Assembly (NCBI GenBank): GCA_039680175.1
Contig: JBDKTO010000060.1
Location: forward strand, 1 to 37,298
Reading direction: 5' to 3'
DNA: 37,298 bases
From: Veillonellales bacterium
GTDB taxonomy: Bacteria > Bacillota > Negativicutes > JAAYSF01
Below, piece after piece: positions 10,470 through 36,838 of the stretch. Both the position numbers and the translations under genes were made by a program. Each line of letters opens with the position of its first letter. Position 1 is the first letter of the stretch. The notes beneath the pieces are model-generated. The model saw only the letters and a program-made list of their open reading frames with translations. It was not told the origin of the DNA and did no database searches.

Positions 10470-10577
10470 GCTCATAGCTCATAGCTCATAGCTCATAGCT
10501 CATAGCTCATAGCTCATAGCTCATAGCTCATAGCTCATAGCTCATAGCTCATAGCTCATAGCTCATAGCTCATAGCT
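10470..10577 (+). repeat. Perfect heptamer tandem array, (GCTCATA)15
   Basis: Fifteen uninterrupted, identical copies of GCTCATA run from 10470 to 10574, followed by a partial GCT. The array lies in the convergent spacer between the biotin carboxylase gene and uvrA. It has no spacers and is not in a reading frame. Perfect identity suggests recent expansion by slippage, so copy number is probably variable between strains. The same heptamer occurs in degenerate arrays elsewhere in this window. Confidence 0.97.
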
Positions 10578-10609: not shown

Positions 10610-10638
10610 AAAGGGATAGGCCGACGGCCTATCCCTTT
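10610..10638. terminator. Bidirectional terminator overlapping the uvrA stop codon
   Basis: AAAGGGATAGGCC (10610-10622), a 3-nt loop and GGCCTATCCCTTT (10626-10638) form a perfect 13-bp stem. It serves the convergent biotin carboxylase and uvrA genes. The uvrA TAG stop (10629-10631) lies within the stem, so the last uvrA codons are part of the hairpin. Confidence 0.82.
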
Positions 10639-13469
10639 AATTTTGCTCCTTCCGCCAAAACCGGTGCCAGAAATTGTCCTGTATAAGATTCCGGCTTAGC
10701 GGCGACAGCCTCCGGCGTTCCCTGAGCCACGACAGTGCCGCCTCTCATGCCGCCTTCCGGACCTAAATCAATCAGATAATCGGCCGTCTTAATCACATCC
10801 AGGTTATGCTCAATGACAACCACCGTATCGCCGCCATCGACCAAACGCTGCAGCACCTCCAGCAGACGGTGAATGTCGGCGGTATGCAGTCCGGTTGTCG
10901 GCTCATCCAGAATATATAAAGTTTTCCCGGTACTGCGACGGGCCAGTTCGGCAGCCAGTTTAATTCGCTGAGCTTCACCGCCGCTTAAAGTAGTAGCCGA
11001 CTGTCCCAGTTTAATATAGCCCAGCCCCACATCCTGCAAAACCTGCAGCTTACGGTAAACCTTGGGAATGTTCTGGAAAAACTCCACCGCTTCATCCACA
11101 ACCATATCCAAAACCTGCGCGATACTTTTCCCTTTATACCGCACCTCCAGCGTCTCCCTGTTGTAGCGGGCCCCCTGGCAGACTTCGCAGGGGACATAGA
11201 CATCAGGTAAAAAATGCATCTCAATTTTAATAATTCCGTCGCCATGACAAGCCTCGCAGCGGCCGCCTTTCACATTAAAGCTGAAACGGCCCGGCTTGTA
11301 GCCCCGCATTTTAGCTTCCGGCGTCTGGCTGAAAATCTCACGAATCGCGTCAAACAGACCGGTATACGTAGCCGGATTGGAACGGGGCGTTCGTCCGATA
11401 GGCGACTGGTCGATATTTATAATCTTATCAATATATTCGACACCCCGGATATCCCGGTGATCACCGGGACGAATCCGACTGCCGCGATAAATCCGCCCAG
11501 CCAGACCTTTGTAAAGGATCTCGTTCACCAGAGTACTTTTCCCTGACCCGGACACACCGGTGACTGCCGTAAATACCCCTAAAGGGAACCGGACATTGAT
11601 ATCCCGCAGATTATTTTCTTTAGCGCCCACAATCTCCAGCCACTTGCCGTTAGGCTTGCGCCGGATCGCCGGCACCGGGATAAATTTTTTCCTGCTCAAA
11701 TACTGACCGGTAATCGACTCTGGGCAATCCTTGATTTCCTCTACTGTTCCCTGGGCGACAACCCGACCGCCGTTTGCCCCGGCCGCCGGGCCGATGTCGA
11801 TAATATGATCAGCAGCGTACATAGTATCCTCGTCATGCTCCACCACTAACAGCGTATTACCGGCATCCCGCAGCTTCTTCAGTGTGGCCAGCAGCCGGTT
11901 GTTATCCCGCTGATGAAGACCGATACTGGGCTCATCCAGGATATACAGCACTCCGACCAATCCCGAACCGATCTGAGTGGCCAAACGGATTCGCTGGGCT
12001 TCGCCGCCGGACAAAGTGCCGGCAGCCCGGTCTAAAGTCAGGTACTCCAAGCCAACATTCAGCAAAAATCCTAAACGGGCATTAATTTCTTTCAAAATCT
12101 GCCGGGCAATCGTTTTCTCCCGGTCCGTCAATTCCAGACGGTTAAAAAACTCCTGTCCCTCGGCAATCGTCATCCGGGTAACTTCATTGATATTTTTGCC
12201 GCCTACCTTTACCGCCAGAGACTCCGGCTTCAGCCGTGCCCCCTTACAAGACGGACAGGGCTTGGAACTCATGTAGCCCTCGATTTCCTCCCGCGACCAG
12301 TCGGAAGTTGTCTCCCGGTAACGGCGGTTCAGCAGGGGAACTACCCCTTCAAAAGCTGAATGATAGACCTTATTTTCACCAAACATATTTTCGTATTGAA
12401 AAGTATACCGTTTCTCGCCCGATCCGTATAAAATCAACTGCTTTATCCCATCGGTCAGGCTGTCCCAGGTGCTGTTAAGGGAAAACCCGTTCCTGTCGGC
12501 CACCGCCTCCAGCTGGCACATGAAATAAGAATTGACGTTCTTGCTCAACGGAGCGATAGCGCCGTCAATCAGTGCCTTGCTTTCGTCGGGAATAACCAGG
12601 GACGGATCGATTTCCATATTGTTGCCCAGTCCCGTACAATCGGGACAAGCGCCAAAGGGACTGTTGAAAGAAAACATCCGCGGGGCGATTTCCGGCAGGC
12701 TGATGCCGCAGTCCACGCAGGCAAAATTCTGGCTGAACACCAGCTCTTTGCCGTCCACAATCTGAACGCTGACTACTCCTCCGCCTAATTTCGAAGCCGT
12801 TTCCAAGGAATCGGCCAGCCGCCGATCCATTCCTTCCCGGACCACCAGCCGGTCCACTACCACTTCAATGGTATGCTTTTTATTTCTTTCCGGCTTAATA
12901 TCCTCGCTAATGTCCTGAATTTGTCCATCCACCCGCACCCGGACGTACCCGTTCCGGCGAATATCCGCCAGCACTTTCTGATGCTCGCCTTTTTTGCCCC
13001 GGACAATGGGCGCCAGCAGCATCAGCCGGGATCCCTCCGGCAGTGCCAGCAGTTGATCCACCATCTGATCCACAGTCTGCTGGCTGATAGGCTTGCCGCA
13101 CTTGGGACAGTGAGGCCGCCCCGCCCGGGCAAACAGCAGCCGCAAATAGTCATAAATCTCGGTAACCGTCCCTACCGTAGACCGGGGATTGCGGCTGGTC
13201 GTCTTTTGATCAATAGAAATCGCCGGCGACAGACCCTCAATGTAGTCCACATCCGGCTTGTCCATCTGACCGAGAAACTGCCTGGCATAGGCCGACAGCG
13301 ACTCCACATAGCGCCGCTGTCCCTCGGCATAAATGGTATCGAAAGCCAGGGAAGATTTACCGGAACCGCTTAGTCCGGTAATCACCACCAGCTGATCCCG
13401 GGGAATCTCAATATCAATATTTTTTAAATTGTGCTGTCTGGCCCCTTTAACAATGATTTTTTCCTTCAC
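10629..13469 (-). CDS. uvrA: Excinuclease ABC subunit A
   Basis: 946-residue damage-recognition ATPase of nucleotide excision repair. It shows the first Walker A ([20 protein letters not shown]), the UvrB-interacting and insertion regions, Cys pairs at [19 protein letters not shown] and CPSCKGARL, the first ABC signature ([19 protein letters not shown]) with [15 protein letters not shown], then a second Walker A ([15 protein letters not shown]), the zinc module CEACHGDG...[10 protein letters not shown], and the second signature [18 protein letters not shown] with [10 protein letters not shown]. All ATP-site motifs are intact. It lies 12 nt after uvrB and is evidently in one operon with it. 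Its stop codon is embedded in the terminator. Confidence 0.98.
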
Positions 13470-13481
13470 AATATAATCCTC

Positions 13482-15497
13482 TCACATTTTATTCTTCAGC
13501 TCCACCAGCATATCCCGCAATTCGGCGGCCCGTTCAAATTCCAGCTGTCTGGAGGCCTGACGCATTTCCTTTTCCAGCTTGGCGGCAAGAGCCGTCATTT
13601 CTTTCCGGCTCATCTTCTCCACAGGGCGGACCGCATATGATGATGCTGTTTCCGCTATTTTGGTCGTTTCGATCAGTTCTTTAACCCGCTTGTGAATCGT
13701 CCTAGGCGTAATGCCATGTACTTGATTATATTCCCCTTGGATTTCCCGTCGACGGTTTGTTTCACTAATGGCCCGCCCCATGGAATCGGTAATCACATCC
13801 CCGTACATAATCACCCGTCCCTCAGCGTTGCGCGCCGCCCGGCCGATAGTCTGAATCAGAGAAGTGTCCGACCGTAAAAAACCTTCCTTGTCGGCATCCA
13901 GTATGGCTACCAGAGAAACCTCCGGCAAATCCAGTCCCTCCCGCAGCAGATTAATGCCCACCAGTACGTCGAACACACCGGCCCGCAAATCCCGGATGAT
14001 TTCCACCCGCTCAATAGTGGCAATATCAGAATGGAGGTAGCGAACCCGTATCCCCATTTCCTTTAAATAATCGGTTAAATTCTCTGCCATCTTTTTCGTC
14101 AGAGTCGTCACCAGCACCCGTTCATTCCGGGCCGCCCGGACTTTTATCTCACCCAGCAAATCATCCATCTGCCCTTTAAGCGGCCGAACCTCGATTTCCG
14201 GATCCACCAGTCCCGTAGGGCGAATAATCTGCTGTACAACCTGGGCGGCTTCTTTTAGCTCATAGTCTGCCGGAGTAGCCGATACATAAACAATTTGATT
14301 GATATGCTCCACGAACTCTTTAAACTGAAACGGCCGGTTATCGTAGGCGGAAGGCAGACGAAACCCGTTATCCACCAAAGACTGCTTCCGGGAGCGATCA
14401 CCGGCGTACATCGCCCGAATCTGAGGCAGAGTCACATGAGACTCATCAATAACAATCAAAAAATCATCGGGAAAATAGTCCATCAACGTATAAGGCGGTT
14501 CCCCCGGCTTGCGGCCCGTCAAATGGCGGGAATAGTTTTCAATACCGGAGCAGTACCCCATCTCCTGCATCATTTCCAAATCATATTTTGTCCGCTGGGT
14601 GATTCGCTGGGCTTCCAGCAGTTTATTCTGCGAATGAAATAAAGCCGCCTGCTGTTCCATTTCAGCCTCAATATTATCAACGGCCCTCAGCATATTCTCC
14701 CGGGAAGTCACATAGTGGGACGCCGGATAAATGGCAATATGCTTCCGTTCGCATAAAACCTCGCCGGTAACAGTGTCAATCTCCTGAATCCGCTCCACCT
14801 CGTCGCCAAACAGTTCCACCCGGATCGCTTTTTCCCCGAAGGCGGCGGGAAAAATCTCAATCACGTCTCCCCGCACCCGGAATTTTCCCCGGACAAAATT
14901 AATATCATTGCGCTCGTACTGAATTTCCACAAGTTTTCGCAGAATATCATCCCGATCCCGCAATTGTCCCTGACGCAGGGACAGCACCATACCCCGGTAC
15001 TCGTCCGGTGAACCCAGGCCGTATATACAAGATACGCTGGCGACAATAATTACATCCCGCCGTTCAAACAGGGAACTGGTTGCCGAGTGGCGCAATTTAT
15101 CAATCTCATCATTAATCGACGCATCTTTCTCGATATACGTATCCGTATGGGCAATATAAGCTTCCGGCTGATAGTAATCGTAATAGCTGACGAAATATTC
15201 CACGGCATTATTGGGAAAAAACTCTTTGAACTCACTGGCCAGCTGAGCGGCCAGCGTCTTATTATGAGCAATCACCAATGTCGGTTTCTGCACCGCCTCA
15301 ATCACCTTGGCAATCGTAAACGTCTTGCCTGTTCCGGTGGCGCCCAGCAATACCTGCGCCCGGTCGCCCCGCCGGATTCCCGCCGCCAATTTTTCAATTG
15401 CCCCCGGTTGATCCCCGGTAGGAACAAACGGCGCCTCCACCTGAAAGGGAACCCCTCCCCCCCGGTGGACTGTATTTAATTTAGGCACAGTATTCAT
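13482..15497 (-). CDS. uvrB: Excinuclease ABC subunit B
   Basis: Helicase-like component that verifies damage and loads UvrC. It has Walker A ([15 protein letters not shown]), the beta-hairpin region ([20 protein letters not shown]), Walker B ([11 protein letters not shown]), helicase motifs ([42 protein letters not shown]) and a C-terminal UVR domain ([17 protein letters not shown]). I prefer the ATG at 15497, with AGGTG 6 nt upstream, over the GTG at 15506. The N-terminus before PTGDQP is about 12 residues longer than in Bacillus. The leader is odd: a promoter and a good SD (AAAGGAG, 15707-15713) lie more than 200 nt upstream, and the space between is filled with heptamer repeats and a palindromic element. 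Confidence 0.97.
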
Positions 15498-15523
15498 ATG
15501 ATTCACCTGTCTCTGTAGAGCTG

Positions 15524-15565
15524 GCTGTTGGGACTTGGAACTTGGGACTTGGCACTTGGTACTTG
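15524..15565 (+). repeat. Heptamer array, GCTGTTG plus (GNACTTG)5
   Basis: Six heptamers stand in register: GCTGTTG, GGACTTG, GAACTTG, GGACTTG, GCACTTG and GTACTTG. In the last five only the second base changes, and it takes all four values. The array lies in the leader of uvrB, between its start codon and the palindromic element. Confidence 0.9.
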
Positions 15566-15582
15566 GTAAAATGAACGAGAAC

Positions 15583-15671
15583 TGTCATTGCGAGCGGCAG
15601 CGAAGCAATCTCAAGGTCTCTATTGCAGTTTCCAGCTTTGAGATCGCCACGGCTGACGCCTCGCGATGACA
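15583..15671 (+). repeat. Palindromic repeat element, copy 1
   Basis: An 89-bp imperfect palindrome runs from TGTCATTGCGAG to CGCGATGACA, with GCAATCTCAA and TTTGAGATCGCC as inner arms around a variable centre. A second copy lies at 35686-35773 in the same orientation. The outer about 30 bp on each side are nearly identical between the copies, while the central about 22 bp differ. It carries no ORF of its own. I recall closely similar ATTGCGAGC...GCAATCTC sequences from many unrelated bacterial genomes, which suggests a REP- or MITE-like element. Confidence 0.9.
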
Positions 15672-15675
15672 ACTA

Positions 15676-15696
15676 GCCAACAGCCAACAGCCAACA
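15676..15696 (+). repeat. Heptamer array, (GCCAACA)3
   Basis: Three perfect copies of GCCAACA (TGTTGGC on the other strand) flank the palindromic element 4 bp from its right end. The left flank of the element starts with the complementary word GCTGTTG, so the element is bracketed by inverted heptamers. Confidence 0.9.
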
Positions 15697-15720
15697 AATT
15701 ATAATTCTCCTTTAATAAAT

Positions 15721-15750
15721 ATTATATCATATAAGATCAAAAAACCGCAA
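15721..15750 (-). promoter_or_regulatory. Candidate promoter of uvrBA
   Basis: On the minus strand TTGCGG (15745-15750) and a consensus TATAAT (15721-15726) are spaced by 18 bp. An AAAGGAG Shine-Dalgarno (15707-15713) follows within 8 bp of the -10, but the uvrB start is over 200 nt further on, beyond the repeat island. Confidence 0.5.
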
Positions 15751-15754
15751 AGGC

Positions 15755-17005
15755 TTATTTTCTCCTAAGCCCTTTCAGCCATTCCCAGATGGCAAACCTT
15801 TCCGTCGCCATCTCCGCATATACCTGTTCATGCCCTTCCGGCACCAAAATAACGCCTAAACGGCGTTCATCACCCTGAGTATGCCACCGGCTTTTCTTTT
15901 TCAACCGACGGCCGTCCCGCTCAATAACAAGAGGAAATTCCTGTGGTGCGTAGAGAATCGCCGTCCCCAGGTCGGCACCGCAATTGACCGGCCTGCCGTC
16001 CAGAGATAACAAGATATCACCCGGCTTCAAACCAAGCTGACGGGCCGGTGTATCCAATACAGTATCCAAGATCATTACCCCGTGATTTGGCGGCACATAA
16101 CGGGGTTCTCCCTCCGTTTCCCGCCGGTTGTCAAGCTGAATCAACAGTTCGTGCCCCAGGGGACAAAGCAATGCGGCAAAGACCTGCAGCCACTCATATT
16201 TTGCCGACAACAGCGCCAGCGCCAGCAGCGTGGCACTGTAAACGGCCAGATGACAGGCCGTCTCCATCCGTCGCCGCAGCGGTGAACTGGTAATGGCCAT
16301 GTCCGTATAGCCTAAAGCCGCCACTACCGGTGTCAGGGCGTAAACCCAGCGCTGTCCCTCGGGAATTTCAATTCCCAAAGGAAGAAGCGGCCACCAATCG
16401 CCTATATGCATCGTTCCCGCAGGCAGATCGCTGCCGGGAACTGCCACTGCCATTAACAGCACCAGCGGCAGCGGCCAAAAATTCTGCAAGCTGAACGCCC
16501 CCACCAGCCGGCCGTCGCCTCGACGCAGAATCAACGGCGAAGCACTGTACCTGCCGCTTATAGCAATCAGCAGACTTTCCGTAATGTGAAGAACAGCCAC
16601 CAATGTCAGGATTTGCGGCACGTTTACATCTGCCGGCCAATTAAATAATATTTTCCCCAGCGCCACAATGCCGCCGGCATAGGCAAAACACAAAAACCGG
16701 ACACTGACCATCATCAGCAGCAGCGCCAGCGGCCAAATATAATTAAACCCCATCTGATTCAGCGTAACCCCGACTACTGTCAGCAGCACACTGCCAACAA
16801 TACCGCCTAAAGTACCATAAAAGAGAGTCAATAATACCTGCTGTCGGAGAGAATAACTGCAGACACCAAACATTCGCTTCTGATTGCGCTGCATCGTCCA
16901 ATACTGATAACCCACCAGCGCCAGAACAATCCAGTACATAAAATCAAAATAAACCGAAATGGTACGGGCAATAATCAGTTGAATCAGATCCTGCCAGGGA
17001 AACAT
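15755..17005 (-). CDS. MinJ-like multi-pass membrane protein with C-terminal PDZ domain
   Basis: 416 residues. The first about 290 carry roughly eight hydrophobic segments (for example FMYWIVLALVGYQYW, LFYGTLGGIVGSVLLTVVGV, IWPLALLLMMVSV, FWPLPLVLLMAVAV), followed by a cytoplasmic PDZ domain (GVMILDTVLDTPARQLGLKP, GDILLSLDGRPVN) and a short basic tail (EWLKGLRRK). This plan of membrane helices plus a C-terminal PDZ is that of MinJ, which in Bacillus bridges DivIVA and MinD at division sites. Position downstream of ctpA, the M23 gene and ftsEX supports a division or envelope role, but overall identity to MinJ cannot be judged here. GAGGTG stands 5 nt before the ATG. The spacer to ctpA holds a terminator and a heptamer repeat, so it may be transcribed separately. 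Confidence 0.8.
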   Translation of the reverse strand: MFPWQDLIQLIIARTISVYFDFMYWIVLALVGYQYWTMQRNQKRMFGVCSYSLRQQVLLTLFYGTLGGIVGSVLLTVVGVTLNQMGFNYIWPLALLLMMVSVRFLCFAYAGGIVALGKILFNWPADVNVPQILTLVAVLHITESLLIAISGRYSASPLILRRGDGRLVGAFSLQNFWPLPLVLLMAVAVPGSDLPAGTMHIGDWWPLLPLGIEIPEGQRWVYALTPVVAALGYTDMAITSSPLRRRMETACHLAVYSATLLALALLSAKYEWLQVFAALLCPLGHELLIQLDNRRETEGEPRYVPPNHGVMILDTVLDTPARQLGLKPGDILLSLDGRPVNCGADLGTAILYAPQEFPLVIERDGRRLKKKSRWHTQGDERRLGVILVPEGHEQVYAEMATERFAIWEWLKGLRRK

Positions 17006-17039: not shown

Positions 17040-17148
17040 GCGAGGGCTGTTGGTTATTGGCTTTGGGCTTTGGGCTTTGAGCGATTAGCTTTGAGCTGCT
17101 GGCGGCCCATCGCCCTTAACCAAACGCTCATAGCCAACAGCCCCTCGC
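17040..17148. repeat. Heptamer island with inverted ends
   Basis: The left end GCGAGGGCTGTTGG and the right end CCAACAGCCCCTCGC (ending at 17148) are inverted repeats with one extra C on the right. Between them are heptamers in register: GCTGTTG, GTTATTG, GCTTTGG, GCTTTGG, GCTTTGA, GCGATTA, GCTTTGA, GCTGCTG. The word GCTCATA recurs near the right end. The island lies between the ctpA terminator and the start of the MinJ-like gene. Confidence 0.8.
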
Positions 17149-19627: not shown

Positions 19628-19711
19628 GCTGTTGGCTATTAGCTGTTGGCTGTTGGCTATTAGCTGTTGGCTTTTGGCTGTTGGCTCATAGCTCATAGCT
19701 CATAGCCCACA
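19628..19711 (+). repeat. Twelve-unit heptamer array between ftsX and the M23 gene
   Basis: Twelve heptamers in unbroken register: GCTGTTG, GCTATTA, GCTGTTG, GCTGTTG, GCTATTA, GCTGTTG, GCTTTTG, GCTGTTG, GCTCATA three times, then GCCCACA. The spacer is inside a co-directional gene run, so the array is probably transcribed, and it ends 7 bp upstream of the AAGGAGG of the next gene. Confidence 0.95.
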
Positions 19712-19722
19712 GCCATCCTTTA

Positions 19723-22152: not shown

Positions 22153-22171
22153 AGGCATTCCTCCTTTGTTG

Positions 22172-22241
22172 GCTGTTGGCGTTTGGCTGTTGGCTTTTAG
22201 CTCTTAGCCCATAGCCCATCGCTCATCGCCAACAGCTCATC
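22172..22241 (+). repeat. Ten-unit heptamer array upstream of the M50 gene
   Basis: Ten heptamers in register: GCTGTTG, GCGTTTG, GCTGTTG, GCTTTTA, GCTCTTA, GCCCATA, GCCCATC, GCTCATC, GCCAACA, GCTCATC. Most neighbouring words differ by one to three bases, as if the sequence had drifted stepwise. The array starts 6 bp from the AGGAGG of the M50 gene and ends 6 bp from the A-run of the transketolase terminator. Confidence 0.95.
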
Positions 22242-35590: not shown

Positions 35591-35674
35591 GTGTTTGGCG
35601 TTTGGCTCATAGCGCATGGCTCATAGCATTTGGAACTTGGCACTTGGCGGTTGGCGGTTGGCGGTTGACGGTTG
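35591..35674 (+). repeat. Twelve-unit heptamer array between glnH and glnP
   Basis: Twelve heptamers in register: GTGTTTG, GCGTTTG, GCTCATA, GCGCATG, GCTCATA, GCATTTG, GAACTTG, GCACTTG, GCGGTTG three times, ACGGTTG. GCTCATA-type and ACTTG-type words occur side by side in one register, which shows they belong to one family. The array stops 11 bp before the palindromic element. Confidence 0.94.
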
Positions 35675-35685
35675 ACGCTAAATTA

Positions 35686-35773
35686 TGTCATTGCGAGCCG
35701 CAGCGAAGCAATCTCACAGCTGCGGTTGCCTCTTCTGCGTTGAGATCGCCACGGCTAACGCCTTACGATGACA
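35686..35773 (+). repeat. Palindromic repeat element, copy 2
   Basis: An 88-bp imperfect palindrome, TGTCATTGCGAGCC to CTTACGATGACA, in the same orientation as the copy at 15583-15671. The left 30 bp differ at one position, the right about 35 bp at a few, and the middle is unrelated. As in copy 1, its left neighbour is a heptamer array. Confidence 0.9.
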
Positions 35774-36717: not shown

Positions 36718-36838
36718 ACTCATAGCGCTTGGAGATTGGCACTTGGCACTTGGAAATTGGCACTTGGAAATTGGAAATTGGGACTTGGCTCATAGCGTTA
36801 GAACGAAGGGGCTCATGGCGCATGACTCATAGTCCAAG
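36718..36838 (+). repeat. Heptamer array upstream of glnH
   Basis: Twelve heptamers in register from 36718 to 36801: ACTCATA, GCGCTTG, GAGATTG, GCACTTG twice, GAAATTG, GCACTTG, GAAATTG twice, GGACTTG, GCTCATA, GCGTTAG. After a 9-bp break a second run at 36811-36838 reads GCTCATG, GCGCATG, ACTCATA, GTCCAAG. The array lies between the glnH promoter and the terminator of the zinc-ribbon gene. Confidence 0.93.

Follow-up and report, generated by a model that had tools for sequence, protein, structure and literature searches.

Heptamer arrays and palindromic repeats, the two components of the repeat island considered here, are of known kinds. Bacterial heptanucleotide repeats have been described in Geobacter metallireducens (PMC2700814, available part) and Chloroflexus (PMC6749651, available part), and a 2007 survey, as outlined in portions of PMC4692102 and PMC4679880, found such repeats to be over-represented and proposed polymerase slippage. 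According to sections of PMC10969869, a Correia element is used for the transcription of uvrB in N. gonorrhoeae (Black 1995, as told there), and transcripts of mtrCDE are cut by RNase III at another Correia copy, immediately downstream of its promoter. Elsewhere among bacteria, REP elements have been noted within uvrA and uvrB themselves (excerpts of PMC3733652). As to regulation, in C. acetobutylicum uvrB is placed under LexA and the rubrerythrin and desulfoferrodoxin genes under PerR (PMC3828012, in the portion available). Among the matches listed in a literature search with the letters of the palindrome, none was on bacterial repeats by title.

The window, that is, the whole stretch of 37,298 nt analysed here, contains uvrB with uvrA directly 3' of it and a gene for a PDZ-domain protein upstream (Table 1). 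The order of elements is promoter, conserved box, repeat island, native Shine-Dalgarno box, uvrB, uvrA. The first-pass annotation had described a leader with a TATAAT, an AAAGGAG, repeats and a distant start codon; this anatomy is present on the minus strand and was correct to within 1 nt, the uvrB ATG being at 15497-15495, one base from the 15498 given earlier. A terminator-like hairpin precedes the promoter.

Table 1. Features of the uvrB locus, in window coordinates
Feature	Position	Strand	Evidence or remark
uvrA, directly 3' of uvrB	10629..13469	-	TIGR00630, 1505.2 bits
uvrB	13482..15497	-	TIGR00631, 1082.6 bits
Native uvrB Shine-Dalgarno box AGGTGA	15508-15503	-	sequence and relatives; 5 nt before ATG
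Repeat island, two 7-bp tandem arrays flanking an 89-bp palindrome	about 15695-15514		between uvrB promoter and uvrB
Heptamer array (CCAAGTN)5 = (GNACTTG)5	15528..15568	-	array scan
89-bp palindromic interspersed element	15583..15671	-	44 loci in 397-kb sample, partial ones included
25-codon TTG frame, proposed upstream ORF	15697-15620	-	present; not supported as a gene
Heptamer array (GCCAACA)3	15675..15696	+	TTGGCTG on the uvrB strand
Conserved 24-nt box containing AAAGGAG (15713-15707)	15696..15719	-	ungapped alignment; resembles a Fur/PerR-type operator
Extended -10 TGATATAAT of uvrB	15729-15721	-	sequence; TGNTA[TC]AAT in 16/33 relatives' leaders
Terminator-like hairpin with T run, overlapping the end of the PDZ gene	15749..15774	-	1 against 0.4 expected (shuffles)
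PDZ-domain protein gene, upstream of uvrB	15755..17005	-	PF13180, 28.5 bits

Relatives of the locus were found through the upstream PDZ gene: with an alignment as query there were 159 confirmed relatives, and the 80 best were used further, whereas a single-protein search confirmed none. They include the Negativicutes Sporomusa, Pelosinus and Lucifera, so that the bacterium of the window is probably a member of this class too. From 110 loci, 34 distinct uvrB leaders were obtained, the window and 33 relatives, after dropping 32 loci with no uvrB at E 1e-20, 35 in which the UvrB alignment started after residue 4, and 9 duplicates.

The flanks of the island can be aligned on both sides with the relative G001, which lacks an island: the distance between the conserved box and GAGACAGGTGA is 182 nt in the window and 9 nt, up to GACACAGGTGA, in G001. 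Thus the island was inserted between the promoter and the Shine-Dalgarno box, and not between the Shine-Dalgarno box and the start. The earlier statement that a repeat island had split the leader stands as far as an insertion between promoter and uvrB is concerned, but not as a parting of a Shine-Dalgarno box from its start. In the comparison with relatives, a multicopy repeat is seen to be preceded by an ancestral promoter (extended -10) with its conserved box and followed by the native Shine-Dalgarno box and ATG. The most probable reading, in which we have good confidence, is that an interspersed-repeat island was inserted into the uvrBA leader between the ancestral promoter with its box and the native Shine-Dalgarno box and ATG, so that uvrBA would have a structured leader some 216 nt long. 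The effect of this is probably small. Transcription would start near 15713 and pass through the island, uvrB would be translated from AGGTGA, and the island, with its strong hairpin in the 5' leader, would be tolerated, its effect on mRNA level or stability being modest at most. Against this reading count, from the results given below, the negative promoter scan, the lack of a target duplication, the absence of copies around the Y1 transposase loci and the failure of the window's box to reach E<=2 with the box model; in addition, the G002 leader has a repeat of its own, different from that of the window. That repeat occurs at seven places in G002, the leader included, and at six in G001. The uvrB leader of G045 contains arms of the same palindrome type as the window, as judged by eye.

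A consensus promoter scan of 15450-15800 found no -35/-10 pair. The assignment of the uvrB promoter is based on the extended -10, of which TATAAT (15726-15721) is a part, and on its conservation in the relatives. A further TATAAT is found at 15703-15698. No LexA-type box, which we take to be of the form GAACN4GTTC, was found on either strand of 15481-15800, and LexA (SOS) control of uvrB at this locus was rejected, since there is no box near the promoter.

The AAAGGAG had been interpreted as an orphan Shine-Dalgarno box. According to that interpretation, the island separated the former uvrB ribosome-binding site from an old start, and indeed AAAGGAG is a consensus Shine-Dalgarno sequence beside the promoter with the island following it. 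However, the uvrB start has kept AGGTGA, and among the leaders compared only that of the window contains AAAGGAG in the 300 nt upstream of uvrB, all 33 relatives lacking it there. Start-proximal Shine-Dalgarno boxes are common to the relatives: a permissive pattern finds them in 31 of 33, the other two having GCGGTGA and GCGAGG. Even the looser A[AG]GGAG is absent within 22 nt past the extended -10 in all 16 relatives having that -10. Instead, the corresponding position in relatives is held by a conserved box, with which AAAGGAG aligns without gaps (consensus ATTnCTAnTGGATAATTATTAT), so that on this alignment AAAGGAG occupies the position of the box and not that of a Shine-Dalgarno box. The split is thus extremely improbable. 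The absence of AAAGGAG near the uvrB of relatives is just what had been named in advance as speaking against it, although some of these relatives carry other repeats in their leaders. The comparative data replace a plausible but wrong reading.

The same AAAGGAG might act in another way, as the ribosome-binding site of an upstream ORF. It had been proposed that TTG at 15697, 9 nt past AAAGGAG, opens a frame of 25 codons and that translation of this leader peptide tunes uvrBA expression under stress. The frame exists as described, ending with TAG at 15622-15620, and the spacing is suitable. AAAGGAG by itself is a credible candidate Shine-Dalgarno box in this organism: 39 of its 73 sites in the 397-kb sample described below have a start codon 4-12 nt further on that opens at least 25 codons. 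However, a start at this distance opening at least 25 codons is present in 18.3% of Markov-1 randomised leaders, and therefore the frame carries little weight. Moreover, it enters the repeat element and would start at about +17 of the mRNA, and the relatives, as stated, have no AAAGGAG in this region. So the frame itself is confirmed, whereas its status as a gene is not supported, and a regulatory leader peptide is very unlikely.

The island belongs to repeat families that are abundant in the genome. When the island was used as query against its own genome (4.08 Mb in 121 contigs; 40 of 92 candidates scored), at least 50 matches were obtained, itself included, some of them partial or overlapping. 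Arrays were counted in a 397-kb sample consisting of the window and 20 stretches picked around the island matches, so that densities from it are biased upwards: there are 48 arrays of period 7, none of periods 4-6 and 8-11, and three of period 12. A Markov control contained no period-7 arrays, and thus, given also the 50 island matches, the repeats exceed chance. Of the 48 arrays, 35 are intergenic by simple ORF calls (at least 90 aa), and most are, by eye, variants of the unit NCYAWNN. The strand of the array agrees with that of tandem genes in 18 cases and disagrees in five; the 25 others were ambiguous, lay in ORFs or had no tandem genes on their two sides. The window has other arrays of period 7 at 10470-10577, 17050-17082, 19628-19714, 22167-22229, 35593-35677 and 36736-36788, the longest being a perfect (GCTCATA)15 between uvrA and an accC-like gene. 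A second copy of the palindromic element, at 35686-35773, adjoins a heptamer array.

The association between palindrome and array was counted in the four contigs that were available whole. Of 34 elements whose 3' end is intact, 15 have an array within the next 80 nt, and of 29 whose 5' end is intact, six have one on the 5' side, against 319 of 4000 random intergenic windows (Fisher p 2e-8 for the 3' side and 0.026 for the 5' side). In the class, the palindrome arm pattern was found in 18 of 200 genomes, this one included, with most matches in this genome (32), followed by G075 (17). Three tandem CCAAGTN units were found in one of the 200, namely this one. The loci of relatives (109 loci, 789 kb) contain 18 period-7 arrays; the ten listed are formed by other units.

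The palindrome has terminal inverted repeats TGTCAT...ATGACA, and its outer stem pairs are retained in 23-24 of 24 copies. Two or three matching flank bases were found at three of 26 full-length copies, with 3.6 expected from shuffled pairs, and insertion with target-site duplication was rejected as not above this level. At the seven Y1_Tnp loci of the own genome, the palindrome had no matches at E<=10 within 1.7-3.3 kb; a REPIN/RAYT origin was rejected, as no palindrome lies around any of them. At two loci (L140 and L142) Y1 transposase genes are edged by another short repeat, of the GAACCGTC type by eye.

The island may also be a working regulatory part, either as a hairpin for RNA processing or stability or as a source of promoters, for which the Neisseria Correia elements are a precedent (PMC10969869, in the sections cited above). 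The predicted hairpin is strong: the folding energy of the palindrome is -39.8 kcal/mol (z -4.21), and the whole leader has z -2.27, two of 200 shuffles being equally stable. The 33 nt upstream of the uvrB ATG fold weakly (-4.4 kcal/mol). Orientation points the same way, as 21 of the 37 elements in the four whole contigs are oriented as both neighbouring genes and three are opposite, with eight overlapping ORFs and five in other arrangements; the genes of these contigs are mostly on one strand, so that the directions of transcription and replication are inseparable in this count. However, such a hairpin is expected from any palindromic insertion, and the promoter scan found no pair in the region. 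Two-sided changes were seen at none of 22 pairs in the 24 copies compared (out of the 44 element loci). At the gathering score Rfam has no match in the window, nor in three relatives' loci (L010, L011 and L030). With neither an Rfam match nor two-sided pair changes, a structured regulatory RNA leader was rejected, and on the whole a regulatory role of the island is unlikely. The preferred reading remains that of an inserted, tolerated island. In this respect the case is mostly ordinary. It provides a clean example of a repeat island that has landed between a conserved repair gene and its promoter, and the period-7 arrays of the host genome are almost restricted to one unit type.

The conserved box downstream of the -10 is present in several relatives among the Negativicutes (L010-L013, L015, L016, L023, L065, L071). 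GATAAT or its equivalent starts 11 nt past the -10 in nine of the ten relatives located and, by counting, in the window also; the distance is 8 nt in L071. A box matrix was built from nine relatives, with the window excluded and L036 excluded as divergent. With it, the window box scores 11.9 bits and comes third among the 37275 positions of its strand, and the relatives score 11.0-28.4 in a leave-one-out procedure.

The core of the box resembles the Fur/PerR consensus, presumably a 7-1-7 box GATAAT-N-ATTATC. The 7-1-7 palindrome is found complete or nearly so in some relatives (G004, GGATAATTATTATC) and is degenerate in the window (GGAGAATTATAATT). With less confidence, the conserved box may be assigned as a candidate Fur/PerR-type operator that has diverged from the consensus in the window. 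There are four Fur-family genes in the genome.

Exact pattern matches recur before two further genes, but wider searches are weakly supportive of an operator. In six genomes the pattern GATAATNATTATC was found at 17 sites and its reversed form at four; the 17 include the G004 uvrB box and a site upstream of desulfoferrodoxin in G002. A longer box pattern has six exact matches in eight genomes, four of them before uvrB, the other two being upstream of rubrerythrin in this genome and of desulfoferrodoxin in G002 (PF02915 and PF01880). With one mismatch allowed there are 23 matches, hardly above the 19 of the reversed control; among the 13 of 18 such sites away from uvrB at which neighbouring genes were inspected, peroxiredoxin, superoxide reductase and nitroreductase genes occur. 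A covariance-program model trained on uvrB (R1; 150 candidates scored per genome) gave 27 matches, six of them being relatives' uvrB leaders. The other 21 include dfx (twice, at one site), rbr and nitroreductase, and about ten are internal to longer ORFs. In this genome the R1 matches at E<=2 do not include the box of the window itself. Good box matches were also observed in G001 (L209) and G002 (L216), at a distance of 206-218 nt upstream of a gene whose 68-aa product matches no Pfam family.

Taken together, these similarities permit a tentative proposal, to which we give somewhat less than even weight: in part of the Negativicutes uvrBA may be controlled by a Fur/PerR-type peroxide operator (ATTnCTAnTGGATAATTATTAT) near +1, shared with rubrerythrin and desulfoferrodoxin genes and replacing a LexA box, and the AAAGGAG of the window would be a diverging copy of it in a leader lengthened by the island. 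Were the box indeed such an operator, these anaerobes would have their excision repair tied to oxidative stress. Of the leads obtained here, the possible control of uvrB by oxidative stress in Negativicutes deserves most attention. A narrow search of the open-licence literature, including the available parts of PMC3828012 and PMC8546684, did not turn up a paper describing control of uvrB by PerR.

Compared with described repeats, the island palindrome shares terminal inverted repeats with MITEs but not the target duplication. Like REP/REPIN elements with RAYT (Y1), it is built of a pair of inverted arms, each about 30 nt long, and occurs many times, mostly in intergenic DNA; it differs in that no element lies in the 1.7-3.3 kb around any of the seven Y1_Tnp places. 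The Correia elements, which are Neisseria MITEs and were compared by description, also are short palindromic multicopy repeats upstream of uvrB; unlike them, the island has no promoter that could be found and no target duplication, and its palindrome is flanked by heptamer arrays. With the bacterial heptanucleotide repeats, the arrays share tandem 7-bp units, a largely intergenic location, many sites per genome and related variants, the differences being the unit NCYAWNN (by eye) and the frequent adjoining of a palindromic element. The candidate operator has a core resembling the GATAAT-N-ATTATC of the PerR/Fur operators of Clostridium and Bacillus, and its pattern has exact matches before rubrerythrin and desulfoferrodoxin genes; it differs from those operators by an asymmetric extension ATTnCTAn. 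Finally, whereas uvrB of C. acetobutylicum is assigned to LexA (PMC3828012, available part), here uvrB is preceded by a putative PerR-like box.
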